Below, piece after piece: positions 26,176-55,300 of a DNA stretch of 64,000 nucleotides. The DNA is from Paramacrobiotus metropolitanus (Eukaryota > Tardigrada > Eutardigrada > Parachela > Macrobiotidae), in assembly GCF_019649055.1 (NCBI RefSeq), contig NW_026570293.1:186001-250000 (forward strand), given 5' to 3'. The notes under the pieces were generated by a model that was not told where the DNA came from, did no database searches, and saw only the letters and a program-made list of their open reading frames with translations. A program made the translations under genes and the position numbers. The first letter of the stretch is position 1. Every line of letters starts with the position of its first letter.

Positions 26176-26638
26176 ATGGCGTCCCAAAATCGTGCTGCAA
26201 CGACACCGCATGAACGACGAGATCCTGGTGCGGGACTGTTAAGCTGCACCAAAGAGACGCTCGTCAGTGGAGATCTGAGCGATGTGCAATTCTCCGTTGG
26301 CAATGATTTTGGTGCTGCAAAGGCCTTCAAAGGCCACAAGTATGCAATTCCACCTTCAGTTCTCTGTGGTCTTCCCTAATTTTCTGGCTCTGCAGGTACA
26401 TTGTGAGTATTCGCAGCACGGTGTTCTATAGGATGTTCTACGGCAGCGTGCCCGAAAACGGTCCGCAAGTCGACATTCCCGACTGCATGCCCGATGCATT
26501 CGAGAACATGCTCAGGTTCGTGAATAAGGATTTTAAAGTGAATAATGGATCCACTACAGTAGTACACTGCGTCAGAGGCGTAGGGCGGTATGGGCAAAGC
26601 CGTTGTGGAAGACCCCCAAGCTTTTAAATACTGAATCC

Positions 26639-37325: not shown

Positions 37326-39275
37326 ATGCCTCAAACACGGGCAAAAACGCTTAAAGAGGCAAAGGATATTTTTGAGGAATTGACAAACAGACCACACCGA
37401 GAGATTGACATCGTTTGTCTTCCACCGGAAGCTGGTGTGTGCTCGGATACAGAGGATATTGATGAAAATGATCTGAGACCGCAAATGCCCAAAGATGTGG
37501 CTGGAGATCTCGATGTTTGCTACGAGACTGATTCAGAGGCCGAAGACGGTCCAGCTCCAAAGCGAAAGAAAGGCGTCATTCTCCGGCCGGAAGTAGACTG
37601 GAAGCCTGACGAGAGCGCTGTCGTGCCATTTCCAGAGCACACGGGAGAAATGCCGAGGAAGCTTGCAAACGAACATCCAGAGCTGATCAGCAAGACACCT
37701 TTGGAACTTTTTAAGATGTATTTTGATGATATTGTAGCGACTCATATTATTACGGAATCCGAACGATATGCCAGACAGAACAACGCTGATTTCCAGCTTC
37801 CCATGCGTGATCTTTTTTTGTTCATCGGGATACTCTTGTACAGCGGAATTGTGCAGCTGCCTACTACGAGACACTTCTGGATGCGCTCCGCATTGTTCAG
37901 CTTTCCGGCCGTTTCTTCGAGGATGTCATGTAAACGATTCGAGGTGAGCAAAGGCAAATAAATTTTGTTGGTGCAGTTTTGCCGTCACCTGGGGCGGGTG
38001 CAATATAAGCAGTATTTTTTTATTGTGGAATCAGGATAAGGTCTTGTCGCTTCGGACATAAAACATACGGCACGTACTTCCGGTTGCAGGAACCCATCAA
38101 AAAACGCATTTGTTCATCGACACCCTGGGTGGTTGGCAGTAATAATTTAATTTTATTTTTTCTAGAAAATTAAAAAATATTTCCATTTGGCCGACAACGA
38201 TCACTTGGATCCGGAGGATAAAATGGCCAAAGTTAACCCCTTCTTCACTCTTCTGAAGGAAAAACTTCTTCAGTTCGGGATTTTTGATCCGTTTTTTAGC
38301 GTTGATGAAGAAATGATTCCTTATTTCGGGCACCATTCTTGCAAAATGTTCATGAGAGGCAAACCATGCCGGTTCGGGTACAAGCTCTGGGTGTTGTGTG
38401 GATCACGGGGATATCCGTACACATTTTTCGCGTATACTGGAAAAGATGCTACGGGCAAGGATGTTGCCGAACTATTGAAGCCACTTGGATCTCGAGTTGT
38501 TTTGAAATTGTTGTCTGTGGTCAAGTGTCCAGATGCACACTGTGTGTTCTTCGATAATTTCTTTACGTCTTATGCGCTTTTGGAGGAATTGCGAGCGCTC
38601 GGTTTTAGAGCCACCGGCACAGCGCGTGAAAATCGTCTGAAGAAATGTCCGTTTCCGGACAACAAAAAATTTAAAAAAACTGAACGTGGTAGCCACGCTG
38701 CCTGTTGCACGGCCAATGTGATTGCTGTGAAGTGGCATGACAATACCGCAGTATGCCTCGCGTCCAACTACGATACCGTTACACCTCTTGGAAAGGCAAA
38801 GCGATAAAGTCGCGCCGCGAAGAAGAAGGTTTTAATTGACCAGCCGCGGATGATTGCCAACTATAATAAACATATGGGTGGTGTTGACCTTTGTGACCGG
38901 TTTATTAGTAACTTCCGGCCGATGCTGCGTTTCAAAAAGTGGTGGTGGCCACTTTTTTCAAACTCCATTGCCATGATCGCGGTTGCGGCATGGCGAGTTC
39001 ATGGTGAAGTAGGAGGCAAACTCACACAAATTGAGTTTCTTTCGCAGCTGGTTGAAGAACTGCTGATGTGTGATGCGCCGCCGATCACTACTGCAACTGG
39101 ACCGTCGACTCCAATTTCTGATGCCGCCCGCTACGACAGTTGTAGCCACATCCAGGAAAAATGCAAGCCCGGACGATGCAGGCAGTGTAAACGCAACTCA
39201 GCGTGTCAGAAATGCAGCAAGTGCAATGTTAAATTACACAAGGACTGCTTTGTGAAGTACCATATGCCAGAGTAA
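37326..39275 (+). pseudogene. piggyBac transposase, copy 1 (single in-frame stop)
   Basis: Exon 1 is 37326-37943 and exon 2 is 38166-39275. The intron GTGAGC...TTCTAG is phase 0 and restores the family motif RFE...YFHLADND. The acidic N-terminus precedes the DDE_Tnp_1_7 catalytic core. The three expected aspartates are in VDEEMIPYFG, VFFDNFFTS and MGGVDLCDRF. The C-terminus is the cysteine-rich zinc domain (KCKPGRCRQCKRNSACQKC) that binds element ends in piggyBac. A TAA at 38805-38807 interrupts exon 2 between the second and third catalytic aspartates and is shared with copy 2. The remaining frame is open throughout. The transposase normally excises and inserts elements at TTAA. Confidence 0.85.
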
Positions 39276-42575: not shown

Positions 42576-45500
42576 CTAACCGAGCCCAGGGATCCAGTTC
42601 GCTTTATTGGCTTTCCAGGTCGCGACCTGGGTTGCGTGGAGCAGCAGTTCGGAGAAGGTACAGTACCCCTCATCACGCTCGTTGTAGCGGATACGATGAT
42701 GGGTCTCGCGGTGCAGTGTCATGTAGGTGCCGTTGCGCGGCCCCTGTCCCACGTCAGTATACATCGGTTGGCCGCTTTTCAGGATATCCGTCGCCCGCAC
42801 CACCTTCTCGGCCGCCAAACTATCCTCCTGGCCGCTGGCGCACCACTTCACCACCACGCGCGCCTGCCGCGTCCCGACAATCTTGGCCGACTGCCACCAC
42901 CTGCCGGACGGGCTTTCAGCGAACACCTCCTCCCCCGGCTTGAACTCCAGCTGGCCGATGCGCAGGGCCGCACAGCCGCGCCATTCCGTAGGGAAGGGCA
43001 GCGGCGGCTGAACGCCGCCGTTCTGGTGTATGAAGATACTCAACAACTCGCTTTCCAGCAGTAGACCAGTCTGTCAAGGGAAGAGAAAGCGTCAGGAATT
43101 AAACTGCCATACTCTCACCGTCCCATGTGTAGTGCAAGCAGGATGCTTACACTGTAGGACTGTCCCAAACGGATTGTGCATAGAGCTCAATAAATTAAAA
43201 AATATTCAGATTACTTGTTCGTTTATTTGTTTAATCACCTTAATGTCTACAACGATCAGAAACCTGCACGAGGTTGTGGACAAACGTAGAAGATCATCCA
43301 AGTTCTCCCAAAATAGCGCAGCCCGAGCACATAATAAGCAACACTGAACACTCAACTGCATCAGCTCTAATGAGCGTCAGAAAAATGGTGACAGTACAGT
43401 CCCCACTGGCAATGACTGTGTGGTCATACTTTCTTGACCTTATGAGATTTTTTAAGACCATGCAATCCGGGCTTTGAAATATTTTCGCGCTTCTTCAAAA
43501 TACGCAGCACTCCAAATAAGCGCATGTGTTTGGTTCTGAATTCAACCAACAACCATTGCCAAAATATGCAGGAAGGTAACTTCTAAGTAATATTTGATTT
43601 TCGTATGAACGATTTGTGGGCCACTTGGCTCGAGTTCAGTCATGCAGCAAGAGCGTTTCCCGTATGAAAAGCGCATCGAAATATGCTGCGACGGGCTCAC
43701 CTTGGCGGGACCTTCGGCCAGTTGCGCGCCGTTCAAGAGCGGAAAGCGGACCAGGAATAGCGCCCTGCCCAGCATCTTCCGACGATTAGTCCCGGAGGGC
43801 TCCAGATCGCTCCGTTTACACGCCTCCACGGCCCATCTGCAACATGATGACAGAGCACATGATTTCTGCGTGCGAGGAACTTACTACAGTTCATCAGGGA
43901 ATTTTGGCCTCAGAGGCGTAAACAGAGGGTGTGGCTTTCACAGCCAAACAAAAAACGAGAATGTTTTGGCTCTGTGCATCCCCTACATCTATTCTACCCA
44001 TACATTCATCTATACAGGAGAAAAATCAAAGTGCAGCAGTAAGTACAGCAGCCAACAGGTACAGTACGCATACAACCACAACCACGCATTCGTACAGTAA
44101 GTTTAAGCCTCAAATTTACTGTACGAGTAGTGAATGCAATTTTTGCCTCACTCTTTGAGGCAAAAATTGCCGAACTACAAGAAATAAACTACTGCATCAT
44201 CACCCTACAATAAACAAATGCTTCGATTATCACACCGAAAACATTTGCCGTATAAAGAAATATATGTCTCAGAAAACAAACATTTTGTGTCCGCTGTATA
44301 CAAGTACCGTTCAACGGCCAAATAGATGGCGTTCTCTTCCGCGGAGATGGCGCTGCGCTCCAGTACCATCTTCAACGTGTCCTGCGCGATGGCCGTGAAC
44401 TGCTCCGACTTCAAAATGACATCGCTCTGTAATTCCACCAGCTGCAAGCATTTCTCCACAATGTCGTCAACTTTCCACTGAATGGCCTGCAAAAGTCATA
44501 ATAACCGAAAACATTGCACGGTAAAAATCCACGCGGTAGAAGAATATTACCAGCTCCAGCAAGGCCATACAGTTCTCGGCATTCAACTGGGTGGCAACGT
44601 ATTCCGCGCAGATGAGATCCAGCTGCGGCAAATCGTACTTGTCGGCACAGCGCATCGTCGGGAAAACGTTATCCACGGTGAGTTTCTTCACTTTATCGGT
44701 GTACATGTAGCTGTACGAGTACAAACATAACACAATGAGTGTGAGCCACTCTGCATGCCTTCACGACGGTGTACGTGCTGCCACGCAGTGTACAGATAAG
44801 TACCCATCCTCTGTACCTCAGCATGTTCTCAAACGCATCGGGCATGCAGTCGGAAATGTCAATCTGCGAGCCTTTCTCGGGCACACTGCCGTAGAACATC
44901 CTATAGAACACCGTGCTGCGAATGCTGACGATATACCTACAGAGCCACAATGTTAGGAAAGATAATCGGGCGAAGGGATGCTGAGCCTGTATACTTGTGC
45001 GCTGGAACACCGGTCCCGCATCGCTGTCAAACTGCTGAGCGGCTTTGGGCGCCATCCGCAGGCACTCGCCAACGGTAAACCGAAGAAGGTTACGTGTGGT
45101 GACGATGGCCGGGTCCAGGAGGCGCACCGCGGCGTCCCAGGCGTCGAGTTGTTCCTTACTACCCTGGGCGTACTGAAACGGGTTAACGGTAAGGACGGCT
45201 TCCAGGCGGGCCACCATCTCGGGATTATCGTGACGGAAACGGGTCACGCGGCGGCGCATGACTGCAAACAAATAACATTGTCAAGTAACACCGAAAACCG
45301 ACTTCAGATTCGTGCTCAGCGCATCAAATAACCCCTAAGAAACGGGTTTCAAGCCATTTCACCACGCAGTTATCGAGATCTCAAAACATGTCGAAAATGT
45401 GACATTTCGATAACTTTTCACGGTAAAATTTTTTTTCACGGTAAAATAAAAAAAATACCAACAGATGGCATATTGTCCAAGAAAACACTACGTAAGTTAG

Positions 45501-48500
45501 GTAACCTAATGGCATAATAAATCTATGCCTCAATGACAAGAAAGGCATCGGAGAAGTGTTATCCGAGGTAATCAAACCAAAAAACGTATGAAAATTTTCT
45601 GAACTGGGAAACGCATGTTTTCACAGCCTCGTAACAATATCTCCGGTTACGGGGTTTCGCTCCTCGCACTGTTGCTTGATATAGCAATGATAAAAGAATA
45701 GTTATTATCACCATAATGCAATTCTGCACAAACTAGAAGGTCACCCTCTGGTCATCACAAATACAAGCAACCATTCTGCGAGCAACATTAAAATTTACAG
45801 AATGTAAATTCGAAATAAACGCCGGCAGCATGAAACCGGCCGAAAAATTCCGGACGAGGCGAAAATTAATGCCAGTAAACCGGGCAAACCTCCGGTGCTT
45901 GCGTCGCGACCCAAAGTTACGAGTACTTACGTTTTCGATGATCTTTTGGCTCGTAACTCGCGTCACTATCCTCTGCGCCAGCATCCAGCAGTGTATCCGC
46001 ATCTTCCTCTTCTGTTCAAAATAAATATTAGAAAAACTCACTGGGGAAGTGCACCGCTGCTGGCTGGCACTAAAAGACCCAAGCCAAGCAGGATACCGAA
46101 TTTCTTTTACCACATTTATAAGAATTTGATTGTTCCATATTCGATTTTGTTATAATGAACGTGTCGATTCTCTCAGGATTATTTGCTGCAAAAATTTTAA
46201 CTGCGTGATCGATAAAAGTCCTATTTCTTCAGAGTAAAGGACCTTCGCTTCGCTGCGATGGTCGATAAATCAACCGAGCGATAAATTACCGTGCTCTATG
46301 TCCATTTCCGGGTCCGTAACGACATTCACATGGTTCAGATCTTCGTTGTCATCATCCGTTATGTTTCTTTCGGGAAAAATTGAATCCTGCGTTTCCGGTG
46401 GAAGGAGATCATCGGCGCCGCTCAACATGACATTTTCATCCGGCGAACTGGGCAAAGCAGACTCGCCAACGAGATCATCACCGTGCAATTGCGGCAGGAC
46501 ATCGTCACCAGCGTTCAGCTGGTGCATGGCTAAAAAAATACAAACTTTAATAGGCAATTTAGTTTATTAAGTCGCCTATTAAAATTATTAGGCAAAAATT
46601 TATTAGGCAATTTTATTAGGCAATTTATTTTCTGATTTATTAGGCAAAAGCCATCAAAATAACGAAAGATCCAGTCCCAGGCACACCACTTTGCAGTTAA
46701 AATTTAGATATTAAAAAGACGTCCAAAATCGCTATCCTCCCATGGGTAACAGGCGAAACACTTAACACAGCCGTAGCTTTTACCCTGATATGGCTAACGC
46801 AAGCTAAATTTCAGTGAATATTTCCATCGAATTTTTTTACCAAATATTTATTTTGATCATTATGATCTCCGTTTTCACCAAAATAATATTATCACCAGGT
46901 GTAACAACTCACCCGACTGATTATCAGCTTTTTTAAGCCGCTTCGTGACCTTCATCTCCTGGGCATAACGGGCCGAGTACCAGACCCTCAGTTCTTCCCC
47001 ACCGATGATCTCTCTCATCGCCATAAAATACACTTGTCCGCCCATATCGTACACACTCAAATTCCGCTCGGCCGTGTTGCGGGCCAAGCGAACGAACTGC
47101 ATCCAGTTGCAGCCGTGCAGAGACTCCGTGTGGCAGCCTGCATCCCTGTGCAGCGTGGAACGGTCATCAAGGGTGGAAAGGGTCCGCTGCAGCTTCGCGT
47201 GGGAACAGGTTACGCCACGCATCGGGCCCATGACGGTGCGGGCGGCAATGCGACACCGCGCGCGAACGCCGCTCGGAACAGCTGCAAAGGATATCATAAC
47301 TGACATATACGGTGCCATAGTACAAGCAAGGAGCACCAAGGTCCAAGATAGCGCACAGGTAATAAAACAAATAAAAATGTAAAACAACATAGTAAAATTT
47401 GTAATATAAATCAAAAGCACGATACAGTAACGTTCTTTTTGCAGTCTTTCTTACCATCAGCCTGCTTTCGAATGAAGGAGAGGGATGAGGGGAGCGTGGC
47501 CAGCGCCAAGGGCAGCACCTTGGTATCGGGGATCCGCCGCGAATGCACCGGGCACGGCTCATCCGGGACATTCCGGGAGCAGTAAACGCAGCCACCGTTG
47601 GATTGCGTAGTTCCGTTATTTTCTGATCTGCACCCTAAAACATACAGATAACTTTCAATACTTCGATTGCAGTACTTTCGCATTCCGAACATTCAGCAAT
47701 ATGGATTCGCCGCACTGCAGACTCGAGACACGATATTCTCCGCGTTGTTGCACAGCAGCACAGGAAGAAATTTTGGGAAAATTCATTATGTGATAATTTG
47801 CGTTGTTGTACAAGCTCGTAATAAAAAAAAACCACAAGCTTTCTTTAATGTGGAAAGCAACGCAGAGGATGCCCTGTCTCTGGTGTGCTGTACGCGAATC
47901 CGTACTCTGTGAGAGTGTTCGGAATGCGGTAAACGTCCCAAGTACTGCTTTTAAAGTTAAATTTGCAGTAACCTAGAACTGGAAAAATGGCATCAAGGAC
48001 CCCCCCTCGCAAGCACGATGCCTACCTTTCCTCGATTTCGTTCCGAAATCCAACGATAATGCTGCTGGCGACGGGCATGTGGCAGCAGGCATGCTGGAAA
48101 ATGCTTGGGCTGCAACGGCAGCAGAACCTTCCGAAGATGCTGCACCATGCAGCTGTGCATCGGGTTCTTGTGCAACAAACATCAGCAGATAGGAAGGAGC
48201 GTTCACTGTTGTAACCGCTGCATTAGAACATTCTTGCGTATCCACAACCCTTGGACTCTTCTTCGACGGCACAGCATCACGTACTAATAATCGACGTCTG
48301 CCACTTTCTCCACATAATGCCAACTGATAAGCAAAATTGAAATCAGAAGCATTAAAATGCTCCGAACAAATTACTGCTTGTGAAGATGGTTCTTTAGCCT
48401 GCTCACAAAAACTATACCATTCTTCCCAACGACTCAGCTCTTTCTCTTTACAAGGAAAAGAATGCCAACTCAACTTCTTATCAGCCCCTCGACGATTTTC

Positions 48501-48533
48501 GCACGTATAAACAAAACATCTCATTTTCGCCAT
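42576..48533 (-). CDS. Chimeric THAP - PR/SET - SANT-like - (partial BTB) - BACK - Tudor-like protein
   Basis: Exons: 48026-48533, 47455-47634, 46913-47281, 46290-46529, 45931-46011, 44817-45261, 44551-44710, 44308-44486, 43701-43836, 42576-43070. They sum to 2793 bp, an unbroken 930 aa. Residues 1-90: THAP zinc finger (RCFVYTC, VICSEHF, AVPS). 170-229: zinc knuckle (CVYCSRNVPDEPCPVH). 230-352: PR/SET domain (CNWMQFVRLARN, EELRVWYSARY). Next come two acidic exons, then a SANT-like domain (VNPFQYAQGSKEQLDAWD). All introns of this upstream half are phase 1. The frame then runs without splicing through a former 58-bp BTB intron (44937-44994) into BTB exon 2. The complete BACK and tail exons follow (LGRALFLVRFPLL, RWWQSAKIVG). 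BTB exon 1 is missing. If the 58-bp intron is removed, the frame breaks. The upstream half is chromatin-type; the downstream half is adaptor-type. Confidence 0.7.
43958..44104 (+). repeat. Dispersed repeat, copy 1 (in intron of the chimeric gene)
   Basis: GAATGTTTTGGCTCTGTGCA...AAATCA-AGTGCAGCAGTA...CAGTAAGTTTAAG matches 49228-49344 in the same orientation. It is non-coding and its class is unknown. Confidence 0.45.
44136..44170. repeat. Perfect 15-bp hairpin
   Basis: GCAATTTTTGCCTCA and its exact reverse complement are separated by CTCTT. It lies within an intron of the chimeric gene. Confidence 0.8.
46048..46254 (-). repeat. Dispersed repeat, copy 2 (intron of the chimeric gene)
   Basis: Reverse-orientation partner of 26639-26843. 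Both ends match (AGTGCACCGCTGCTGGCTGG at one end, GGACCTTCGCTTCGC at the other), while the interior is diverged. It sits entirely between two exons of the PR/SET half. Confidence 0.5.
46545..46632. repeat. TTATTAGGCAATTT-type tandem motif
   Basis: Five or so irregular copies of (A/T)TTAGGCAA separated by 12-25 bp, just upstream of the acidic exon. A related AATAGGCAATGAA occurs in the hairpin at 50123-50183. Confidence 0.5.
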
Positions 48534-49380: not shown

Positions 49381-52300
49381 TTATGATGACGCACTGCCCT
49401 GCATGAGGGTGCTGGACAGTGTCAACTGCGGCTCGGCGTCCAGCGACCGCTCCGGATGGCGCACCGTTAAATGGTAGGCGAACATCCCGCGGCGCACAAA
49501 ACCCTGCTGACACTCCTCACAGGAGAACGGGAATTCCGTGTAGTGTTTACACTTCTGCGGGGAACGTAATCCCTGCGATTCCCTTCCATCCGCGTGACCT
49601 TTTTACCGGTCGCCATTTTTTTACCGGCCGTCTTCCGCCCGTCCACCTTCCCTTCCGTGTGCACCCACCGGCGATGATTCACGAGATGCCGCGCCGTTGC
49701 GAACGATTTGCCGCATTCACAGACATGTTCCCGCGCCACACTGTGCACCCCTTTCGTATGTACCTGTAATCCTTCACGACGGCTAAAAACTTTGTCGCAC
49801 AGGGTGCAGGCAAACTCCCCGCTGCTGGTGTGCTTGCGGACATGCCGCCGGAAGTCCCGGAAGCTGGTGGGGCATTTCACCGGGAACTGGCTGTTGCAGA
49901 TGGAGCACAGGAGGTCTCCGTCGACGGAGTGGGACGCCAGGAGATGGTCGGAGAGGAGGGTGGTGGTGCGGAATTTCTCGTCACACAGCGGACATTTTAT
50001 GTTGACCGGTCCATCGTGAGACTGCATTCGGAGACAAAAAACATGCAACTTTTTATACATAGTTATTACAATCTATTTTAGCTACTCAGTAGCTAAAATT
50101 CAATTTAACGAAATTTTATGTCCAGTACGGTTTTAATAGGCAATGAAAATATTATATGTTCATTGCCTATTAAAACCGTACTGTATATACTTTGTAGAAT
50201 TTAGTTAAATTATGCGTGGTAAAGTTTTCTCGTGTTAATTGGGACGAATTCTTCACTTGATTGCATTTACTGAGTGGTGCTCATTGATGTGCTTATTGAA
50301 AAATAAATTTTTTGTTGGAAAAAAAATCAATTAAAATCAAAAAAGAATTTATCAATAAATAAGGGAGAAAACGAATAATTAACAAAATAATATACAGACC
50401 ATTCAAAAACTAAACACGATAAATGACAATAAATTAATATCAATTTTACCATGACGTGGCGCGCGAAAGTGTTATTAATGGCGAACCGCTTGTGGCATGT
50501 CGGACACTCGTACGGCTTCTCGGCATCCGACAGCAAATGCACCTGTTGAATATGCCGTTCCAGTCTTTTAAAGGAAATAAACGACCTGTTGCAGCGCGCA
50601 CAAGTATGTAGATCTTTCCGGGTGTGCCGCTCATCCACGTGCGCTATGAGCTCCTGCAAACAGGTCCCGGCAAACGCGCATTCCGGGCACTGCCGAATCT
50701 CCTCATCATCGTTTTGCATGGCATCCGCATCATGTTGGAGAAAATGAATTTTTCGCGCGGCGCGGGATTTAAATTCCAGCTGGCAGTCCGCGCACCACCC
50801 GTAATGACAATCCGGCCTACCCTGGACTTTCTTCCGGCGTTTTCTTCGTTCTACTGCATCTTTCGGCCAGATGCGGTCATATAACGCTTTGCGGGATAGA
50901 TAGTCCAAGCGTTCTTGCTGGATTCCCTCCACGCCGTTATTATTATTATTATTATTACTATTATTATTTTGACATCCTCCTTCGTCATCTGGGTCGATCG
51001 GAACAGCATCCTTTTCCTACGGTTGAACACACAGTTTTACATGTTTTAAATTTCAAGTTACAAATAAATTCATTTCAAATTTACAACGGGTCTCCATGTA
51101 ACTGTAATTTGAAACACGGTTTGTAAAGAAAAATTAAAATGTTCGAATCATTATACGTGTATAAAGTAGGAATTTACTGGGTTATTCACATTAACATAAG
51201 TTAAAGGAAAAATTACGCAGTTCATCGTTTCAACACATAATACACTTCAGAACAGCAAACTGCTAGGAAGCTGCTGCTTTCTTGAAAATTCACCTTAAAT
51301 TAACATTAGTTTTGCAAGGGATGTGCTAGGATCGTATAGAACTTCGGACAAAATCTGCCGATTGAGGGAATCGAACCCACAACTTCCATACTCTAAGGCC
51401 GAGAGAGGCACCACTAGGCTATCGGCAAAGCATACAAATTATTATCGAAATGTTTTATCAAACGATCCTACAGAGAGCGGCTGCCGCTCTAACAGTTTCA
51501 TTCGGGTCGAATCAAAAAATGTCGATAATTTTTTTTTAATTTTTAACCGAACCTTTTCCATCTCATCGGTATCGTGTCGTCCGGCGAGCTTTCGCTTCAA
51601 CTGCCACGCTTCGCGCCACGACAAACACGGCTTTCCCATCAGCTGCATATATTCATTCGCAGCGCGCCAGTCATCCTCCAGAAACGGTACCTTGTCCATC
51701 ACAGATTTGGCTGACGCGTCCGACTGGCATCTTATCCGTAGATACTCCGCGATAACCCCGGATACATCCGTCTTCGTCTGATCTTCGTTCGGTCCTGCGC
51801 GCTTCCATTGCGCAGAGTTTTTTGGCTCATCAAACCATTGGGCTAAGAGCTCCTCTTCCCGCTCCGACCATTTATGGTAGCCTCGAAAACTACGCGACCT
51901 TTTCGACTTCTTTTGTAATCCAGCGGATGCTTCATTGTCGTCTGGTGTCGCTGTAGGTGATTTCCGTTTTGTACCTTTCTTGGCGCTGATTTTCCCGAAA
52001 TGTTTGCGCTCCATCTGGAAAATCTTGTCCTCGATGGATTTGAGTTGGCGTGGCTGGCTGGAACGCTCGTCTCCCCGGTTGACGAGAAATGCCGCAATCT
52101 CTTTTAAGACATGTTGCCGGGCATTGAACTGTTTGCGGGAATTAAGATGTCCGTCGTGCCCGACCGATCCAGTCCATTTGGCGTAGTTATCCGCTGTGTT
52201 CAACCACTCGATAAGCAGATTCTCCTCCTCCACCAACCATTTGTGATAGCGCCGTTTGATTCGGGGTTTATCAGCCTAGGGTGGAAATTCAAAGAGTTTT

Positions 52301-55300
52301 GAGCCATGATTTTTTCATCTAAAAACAAATTCAGAAAATAAAACAAGCTTGTTGCTTTTCTGTTATAAAAACAAAAATTTAAAAAAAAACGATTAGCAGC
52401 ATTTAAACCTTTCGCCGATTTTAGTACACCATATCTCGGCAACCGGATGCTGCGCGCGCAAACGGTTTTCAAAACAATGTATACAAATCATTTAGCTTTA
52501 GAATGACATAAAGTATCACAAAAAAGTGATTCGAAGTCCACGAAAGCGAAAGTTTTAGTGTATGTATCCCATTTTTGACACCATGTACCGGGCCATTTTC
52601 CTTACATAGTCAATAAATTTTATCAATTTCTCCACCTAAGACGTATATTTAAAAATTATAACATTTCTTATTTACAATTTTGGATATTTTTTCAAAGTTT
52701 AGAATCTATTAATTTTTATTGGGGTAAACTTGTGCAAACGTATCGGTCTGTACACCGTGAGCAAATAAAAGTATACATTAAAAAAAGGTAATTTTTATTG
52801 TATTTCATGCCGTTGCAAATGTCCGGTTTGATTCTGAATTACTCGTAATTGTGATGCCTGAAGTGCGAAATGTTGATCGTAATTTTGAAGCCTGAAGCGT
52901 GAAATGTTTGAAAATCTTATTTCAACCCTTACATTAGTTGGCGCACTTTGTGGAGAATCAGTACTGTCTTTCGCCATATCATCCACGGAATCCAAGCCCG
53001 GCGAATCTGCGTCGCCCTCCAAAGGCACACAGCTGTCGGCGTTATTTTCCGCCGGTTGTTCCGCGTTCTCCTCCACGGTGACGACAACTTTCGGCAGGAT
53101 GCCTTTCAACTGTAATTGGAAGATCTTATCCAGAATATTCTGCGCGGTACGCTGCCGGGTGCCGGGTCCGCCCTTGTCCGCCAGCAGGGCGGCGATCAGA
53201 CCGGCGACTTCGATCTTGTTTAACGTCATGGGATAGTTCGATGTTTTGGCATGCGCCAGTCGCCACTGCTTGAAATTCTCCGGATCCTCGAACCAGTCGA
53301 TTAGCCAGCGTTCTTCCTTCGGTCGCCATAAAAGTAGCCGCGTTTCGGTTTTTTGGCGGCAACCGGCGTCGCGGGTGGACGCCCGCCATCCGAACGCAAG
53401 CGACGACGTTCTGCAAAAATAAATCAAAATTTTCATGCGGAAAGCAAGGGTAACGGAAAATGAATACAGCTGCGAAATTTGAATGTTTTTAATTATATTA
53501 AAAACAGCAGATTTGTGAAAATATCCATAACTGTAAAAACGACAAAAGTACTGAATTTCATGAAGCTGCAGTTCTATGCCATACCATACGTTTCCATTGG
53601 AAACGTATGGAAACTGTCCAATAAACCGAATTAATTTTTCAATGATTACAGAATTTAGTGTTTGATAAAGTTGCCTTACTTTCCGCTAACTAAAATTAAA
53701 TCTCTTTTAAATGACAGAAATTAGAAAAACGTTGTGATTAACACATGTAAGTTTGTCATAAATTTTCAATGAAATAAATCAGAAATTTATATTTAATAAT
53801 TAATTTTCAATTTAATTCTAGCCATTGAAAAAGTCATAATGTCAAATGGTATCGTCGCTTTTCTTACCGGCTGTTAGTGTGTTGTTGCTGCCCAGATTTT
53901 TCTTGACCTTTCTGTCGTCGGCATCACCGTTGTTTGGACAATCTCCAGTTGCCACGAAATCCGCCAAACTATGTTGTACACTCTCCGCAACGTCACACAA
54001 ATGCTCCGATGTTGGCAAATATTCGTTCTGATCGCCGTTCGCTGCTTCGATTTCGTTCTCGTCATTCTCCGGTAAATAACCTTAAAAGAACTATCCACAA
54101 TAATCAACGGACAAAAAAAATTAAAGTAATAATATTACAAAAAAGGATACTTATTAAACACACCAGAATTAAAGATTACAGTTATTTTCGAAATTAATAA
54201 ACAGCTAAGAGGTTCCAAGTTCCAACCATACCTTGTGACGGCAGATTTTCCAAGGCCAGATTTTCTTTATTGAGAAGTTGGCCATAGCGTTCGGAGTACC
54301 AGAAGGAGAGCTCCGTATCCGCCGGGATATCTTTTGTAGTGGCCAGATAAACCGCATCATTGTGGCAGAAGGCCACGAGATTCTGCCGATCGGCACGCAC
54401 CGCTTCCCGCACAAATTTCACCCAGTTACACCGATCATCGCAGTCCAGATCAAACACTTGCACACCGTGGATGCGGCTGTTCTGGTCACGCAGGCCAAAA
54501 CGCTGATCAACGGTGAAGGTGACGCTAGCCTGCCGTGTCAGGGGAGCGACCAGCGGGCCGAATACGGTCGGATGCGGGATGGCCGTTCTGGCAAAGACAC
54601 CTTGATCTGCCGGTAAAGTAAAGAAATCACAATGTCATCATATCAAGTTATCAACCCACTCATACAGTACGCTGCACTGCCCATTCATTTTACACAGCGC
54701 AACCGCGCGTACACTGAACCGGCAGTCGTACGAAGCGGATTTAGCGGTTGAATGGAGAAATAGCCGGTTGCGCAACTGAACGAGCTATAACCGGTTGCGC
54801 GGTTTATCACAGAGGCCTCGATCAGTGCAGAACCTAGTACTCGCACTTGTACGTACGAATACACTCGTACGACTGGCACGAGTACAGTATACATGTACTG
54901 CAAATAAAATAAATTATTATGATTTTCGCCACAAACATCAATGAACCGTACCGCAAGTACTGCGCTGGAGTTACTTTCCCTTGGCTGTTTTAATACAGCT
55001 CTGCGCATAGCTGGTTTTTATAATGAATGACAGGTGTCTTGGATTTTTTAGCTACTTACTGGTGTGCGACTGTACGAATTTCCTCATTTTTTTCAGTTGG
55101 ATGATACCTGTTACTACATATTATTTTATCCTGCCAGGTTAAAATCCCGTGCTAGACTGTCACCGTAGCGGGAATGGGCTGCCCGCTCTGATGCGAATTA
55201 AATTAAATTGATTAAACCTTACCAAGCATCCCGTCTTTCTGCGCGATGTACAGCTGCGCCGGTAGAGTGCCGTACGCTTTGGCCACCGTTGGCGTGTCCT

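Follow-up and report, generated by a model that had tools for sequence, protein, structure and literature searches.

Does the long open frame that crosses this tardigrade locus belong to one working gene, or does it mark the place where two genes were joined by accident? Ten exons on the minus strand, from 48533 to 42576, join to 2793 nt, that is 930 codons and a stop. Two identifiable sources lie in this one open frame, which runs through a THAP domain, a cysteine knuckle, a PR/SET domain, a partial repeat, the second exon of a BTB gene, a BACK domain and a tail. The reading that we prefer, with a probability of roughly 0.55, is that of a chimeric gene that arose through rearrangement where two expanded families meet, and in which an inherited intron decides the product.

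The window denotes the whole stretch of DNA analysed, 64,000 nucleotides long, which corresponds to positions 186001-250000 of contig C73. The assembly searched comprises 169.8 Mb in 533 contigs, and the introns and domains of the window mark it as eukaryotic.

Anatomy of the fused gene

An earlier note on this DNA described ten exons with an unbroken 930-codon frame, and this description holds: all nine modelled introns have GT...AG ends. The interval assigned there, 44817-48533, is too short, as the frame runs on to 42576. Exon 1 (48026-48533; all features of the gene are on the minus strand) provides the start codon, the THAP domain (Pfam THAP, 4.3e-11, positions 1-85 of 87) and a linker. 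Exon 2 (47455-47634) encodes a cysteine/histidine knuckle with 63-67% identity to four paralogs, L004-L007, and exon 3 (46913-47281) the PR/SET domain, which matches the Pfam profile PRDM2_PR (6e-23) and the PR domain of PRDM10 in the PDB (1.1e-14). Two acidic linkers follow in the gene model as exons 4 (46290-46529) and 5 (45931-46011). The first part of exon 6 (44999-45261) is a truncated repeat which ends in GPVFQR. Judged from the exon lengths, the five introns of this half are all in phase 1.

The second half begins with BTB exon 2 (44817-44936), 90% identical in protein to the copy at 26397-26513. BTB exon 3 (44551-44710) is placed by the gene model and by comparison with other copies. 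Exon 4 (44308-44486) carries BACK (2.9e-6, positions 1-99 of 103), which extends into exon 5 (43701-43836) according to Pfam and the gene model. These Pfam matches, obtained with a hand-assembled model of the gene up to BTB exon 5, and the knuckle identities bear out the THAP, knuckle, PR/SET, BTB exon 2 and BACK assignments of the earlier note. The last exon (42576-43070, stop at 42576-42578) encodes a tail conserved in the BTB family; its longer matches to the other copies show roughly 44-53% identity. Its description as Tudor-like finds no counterpart, as the tail has no Pfam match above the cut-off and no NCBIfam match.

Hexamers of the AATAAA/ATTAAA type occur on the minus strand at 43230, 43222, 42603, 42371 and 42105, and there is none from 43236 to 45300. 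With none of them in the path from the join to the end of BTB exon 5, transcription from the head probably carries through BTB exons 2-5, although the two near 43.2 kb come before the last exon.

The join

On comparison with both families, the join is a rearrangement scar between a PR/SET-family gene and a BTB-BACK gene. For the repeat exon, the best-matching paralog (C482:16547-16801, 56% identity) loses its DNA homology to the window at 44999. In paralogs L001, L004, L005, L007 and L008 the GPVFQR codons continue into Y/F-M/I-x-L-L-N/Q; L006 deviates at this site (EPEMQR-YLVLVK). Beyond it, the frames of L004-L007 hold more sequence of the same kind and then C2H2 fingers (Pfam was run on L004 and L006), which are not found in the fused frame past the join. 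After GPVFQR the window reads ACAA and then GTATAC..., which corresponds to the last bases of BTB exon 1 and the first of its intron 1 as seen in other copies. The break lies within a 7-bp overlap, CCAGCGC (44999-45005), which the PR/SET paralogs carry ahead of the break and BTB copy L003 carries where its exon 1 ends; the other BTB copies have at least one mismatched base within it. On the BTB side, identity at the DNA level is 86% over 146 bases, part of the intron among them.

An exon 1 match was detected in nine of the ten BTB copies compared, the fused copy being the lone exception. This set comprised seven other copies of the window including H63, two flanking loci and the fused copy, out of a family with hundreds more elsewhere. 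Between 42000 and 64000 there is one significant exon 1 match, at 63789-63721, which is assigned to H63, and none for the fused copy. The first BTB exon is thus absent as had been claimed, except that its last bases survive at the join.

Could the join be an artefact of assembly? Both families are repetitive, which would favour such an error. The window contains no N, the join is internal to a contig of 709,813 bases, no second version of it appeared among the matches listed for a 584-bp genome search, and we regard this explanation as highly improbable. A genome-wide search for the 26-base junction itself, tolerating up to three mismatches, found it once. A genome-wide search for the lost type of PR/SET tail (E 1e-4; 74 matches listed, 141 of 222 candidates scored) revealed no reciprocal junction. 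Of the matches listed, a single one falls in the window, a weak match (E 1e-7) within a neighbouring zinc-finger frame, 50447-50797.

That neighbourhood has features of its own. A second PR/SET match (54272-54604) lies upstream, on the same strand, of frames lacking Pfam matches and of C2H2 fingers (49467-51016), and the stretch 49467-54604 is probably a second gene of this kind. Within the fused gene, an intron stretch (45295-45400) looks like a satellite unit because it matches arrays of roughly 147-base spacing on contigs C174, C187, C193, C226 and C297.

The THAP-PR/SET head

The head belongs to an architecture used repeatedly in this genome, since a THAP match precedes at least 20 of 70 PR matches, that of the fused gene among them, by 0.8-2.1 kb on the same strand (a count based on 57 of 150 THAP matches). 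It recurs on contigs C12, C17, C26 and C73. The novelty that had been claimed for the domain order is accordingly narrower: THAP-PR/SET is common here, and it is the full join that was found once.

The THAP domain is 54% identical to that of a repeated element (L009/L010), two copies of which share 98.6% identity across about 3 kb; matches of THAP at 52% lie in three contigs. We take the element to be a transposon of the P-element type, its own matches being weak (P-element E 0.095, RNase H-like E 0.084). Identity to the THAP domain of paralog L007 is 30% over 40 residues only, and the exon 1 linker resembles L007 (42% over 52 residues). Because its THAP domain is closer to the P-element-like element than to that of L007, the head may itself be a transposon capture, and the transposon would be a possible third source. 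Further transposase parts were not seen in the fused gene.

The repeat had been called SANT-like. This name was rejected, as the repeat exon in the fused-gene model gave no Pfam match at 0.1, and among eight aligned repeats one reached a SANT model (E 0.064). A profile of the repeat retrieved nothing credible from the PDB (best E 0.13, the entry Super WA20). A distant SANT-type fold is possible; the copy in the fused gene is in any case truncated.

The BTB-BACK half

The BTB match of the fused copy begins at profile position 24-26 of 110 and runs to 109, whereas exons 1-2 of the unfused copy G match from position 5. The domain is therefore incomplete, having lost the first quarter of the profile. 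The closest PDB sequence is BTBD6 (1.8e-13, residues 1-82 of the 198 given), followed by SPOP and Kelch-like chains. Because the BTB domain is incomplete, the ubiquitin-ligase adaptor function suggested for this half is unsupported; the chromatin reader/writer role suggested for the head is likewise doubtful, as the head lacks the C2H2 fingers that its paralogs have.

The family is greatly expanded: scoring 150 of the 1353 first-look candidates yielded at least 215 exon matches at E 1e-6. Several copies deviate from the usual layout. In the part of the window from 16700 to 41600, D26 and G41 carry stops, and the last exon of A18 is out of frame. In G41, exon 5 and the assigned last exon are about 4 kb apart, and transposase-like frames, piggyBac-like by eye, occupy 38166-39275 between its exons. 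The copy in L002 has no AG acceptor at the expected start of exon 5 (L002:3676-3685) and may be damaged, although its frame is free of stops. At C11:1322488-1323078, a BTB-BACK match to query residues 3-198 lies in a single 396-residue frame lacking the usual introns, perhaps a retrocopy.

One might suppose that the BTB half is expressed alone from an unrecognised promoter and first exon, the PR/SET half merely overlapping it. Its constraint, which looks equal to that of other copies, would suit this idea. Against it stand the lack of an exon 1 for it in 42000-64000 and the fact that an internal start would yield a BTB domain short of about a quarter of its profile, and we consider a separate BTB gene very improbable.

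A former intron in the open frame

Between the scar and BTB exon 2 lies the former BTB intron 1 (44937-44994), 58 nt long, with GT...AG ends; six other short-intron copies span 56-75 nt. The 930-codon frame reads it as codons, and the linker peptide of the long chimera is TSIQAQHPFARLSFLTLWLCR. If it is spliced out, the frame breaks, as the earlier note had seen: the product would have 587 residues, the last 39 of them out of frame, and would end at a TGA (44818-44820). Coding use, which had been presumed, is possible and compatible with the retained frame, although the splice signals are intact.

That the total is divisible by three is true, and the coincidence is not improbable. In five of the six unfused short-intron copies (five of nine among all unfused copies), the exon 2 frame is open back through intron 1, a stretch that is modelled as intron there. 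By chance about 0.28 of such fusions (about 1/3 times 5/6) would look like this one. An open in-frame intron is therefore weak evidence, as most of the unfused short-intron copies show the same openness.

The donor of this intron, CAAGTATAC, scores 5.05 and ranks eighth lowest of 53 on a matrix built from 48 donors, five of which come from the PR/SET half of the fused gene. It outscores the intron 1 donors of the unfused copies B22 and E32. At position +5 it has A, where D26 and G41, the sister copies in the tree, have G. The intron also retains a CTAAC motif and a TAG acceptor. Splicing is plausible given GT, AG, CTAAC and a donor above those of B22 and E32. The donors of introns 2 and 3 of the fused copy are the weakest of the ten in their respective sets. 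Cryptic routes out of the repeat exon were considered and rejected, as the six donors with the right phase for BTB exon 2 score 3.14 at most.

These observations could be accommodated by a recent fusion without a future, in which the intron is spliced, the frame is broken, and the mRNA is degraded or a truncated THAP-PR/SET protein is made. The intron signals are complete, the donor falls within the family range, the other BTB gene models imply splicing, and the retained frame has the chance expectation given above. Truncation of both the repeat and the BTB domain, the weak donors of introns 2 and 3, and the stops or frame breaks in nearby D26, G41 and A18 point the same way. The BTB half would then be intact merely because too little time has elapsed. 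Set against this are the absence of any lesion across 930 codons and the short span left for unconstrained evolution, discussed below. We regard such an outcome as possible, at clearly less than even odds.

Constraint on the two halves

The codon model covered 350 codons in nine BTB copies. On the branch to the fused copy dN/dS is 0.24 (upper bound about 0.39) versus 0.28 elsewhere, and fixing it at 1 costs 2dL 27.7; in the six copies without stops or frame breaks the branch value is 0.21 (2dL 27.0). Exons 2-5 alone give 0.17 with an upper bound of about 0.31. Taken singly, exons 2, 3, 4, 5 and 6 give branch values of 0.04, 0.23, 0.23, 0.26 and 0.47, with 2dL against 1 of 17.1, 3.9, 4.8, 3.6 and 2.2; the signal of constraint comes mostly from exon 2, and the last exon is no different from 1. 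In 260 columns the fused copy has three unique changes and the other copies 2-11. Its BTB half contains neither stops nor frameshifts. The branches of D26 and G41 (0.37 and 0.39) show no clear rise despite their stops.

In the head, the PR exon has a branch dN/dS of 0.16 (2dL against 1 of 18.0) and the knuckle exon 0.26 (2dL 8.4). The truncated repeat, at 0.79, differs neither from 1 nor from background (2dL 1.72 against one common ratio), and the repeat of paralog L001 is similar (0.94).

All these branches include time before the fusion. From the upper bounds we estimate that unconstrained evolution could fill at most roughly 7-15% of the fused-copy branch, so a fusion without use would have to be very recent. 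As the BTB half is constrained and its branch includes pre-fusion time, the fusion is either very recent or still translated; the selection result does not choose between the two.

Proposed origin and products

On the preferred reading of a rearrangement chimera with a decisive intron, a PR/SET-family gene would have broken after its GPVFQR codons, and a short microhomology would have let the broken end join the closing bases of exon 1 in a BTB-BACK gene. Comparison with paralogs shows what is gone: on the PR/SET side the last helix of the repeat, the second repeat and the C2H2 fingers, and on the BTB side the start and first exon, presumably together with the promoter. Transcription probably begins at the THAP end and continues into the BTB exons. 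The old 58-nt intron would then decide the product: if kept, a protein of 930 residues with THAP, PR/SET and a partial BTB-BACK; if removed, a THAP-PR/SET protein of 587 residues including 39 foreign ones. The mRNA of the spliced form should be a target of nonsense-mediated decay. Such a layout points to a single promoter and a single 3' end, with the leftover intron acting as switch. Both RNA forms are likely to be made, and we slightly favour, at even odds or a little better, some production of the long protein.

The preferred reading draws on the 930 open codons, the paralog homology ending at 44999 with BTB homology beyond it, and the 7-bp scar; on the single junction, with no unfused version among the matches listed and no exon 1 for this copy in 42000-64000; and on the hexamer-free interval 43236-45300. 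The BTB half, intact and constrained while sisters D26 and G41 carry stops, the constrained PR domain (0.16) and the A at +5 of the intron 1 donor also argue for it. It is disfavoured by the intact splice signals, by the open intron 1 frames in five of six short-intron copies, and by constraint which may predate the fusion, the last exon and the truncated repeat being no different from 1. The weakest donors at introns 2 and 3 and the two hexamers before the last exon weigh in the same direction. A stronger proposition is that the chimera is translated and kept by selection, with the intron as a coding linker from a transposon-derived THAP and PR/SET head to a BACK tail and splicing as the switch between long and short forms. 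We hold this proposition to be tentative and, on balance, doubtful.

Relation to known systems and significance

The PR domain links the fused gene to the PRDM family, some members of which have methyltransferase activity; it differs in lacking its paralogs' C2H2 fingers and in carrying THAP at its front. With BTBD6, SPOP and Kelch-like proteins it shares sequence and the BACK domain, but it has lost the first BTB exon and carries a family-specific tail. Its likeness to transposase-derived THAP proteins of the P-element type lies in the THAP domain. Among the titles listed in a literature search, none dealt with THAP joined to PR/SET or BTB-BACK. Rearrangement is a familiar source of chimeric genes, and this junction resembles theirs in lying inside two expanded families, in its microhomology and in its shared frame. 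It differs in having kept a whole intron on whose retention the frame depends.

Should the fusion prove a dead end, it would be a useful warning that a frame left open by a former intron says little for the existence of a new protein. If it is translated, the long form would place a PR/SET head, without fingers, on a BACK tail with the last three quarters of the BTB profile. This would be a clean and dissectable one-step origin of a new domain order, in which the break, the microhomology, both parent families and the change from intron to exon are visible in one genome. It would show that large, unstable nuclear gene families, here THAP-PR/SET and BTB-BACK, recombine with each other.
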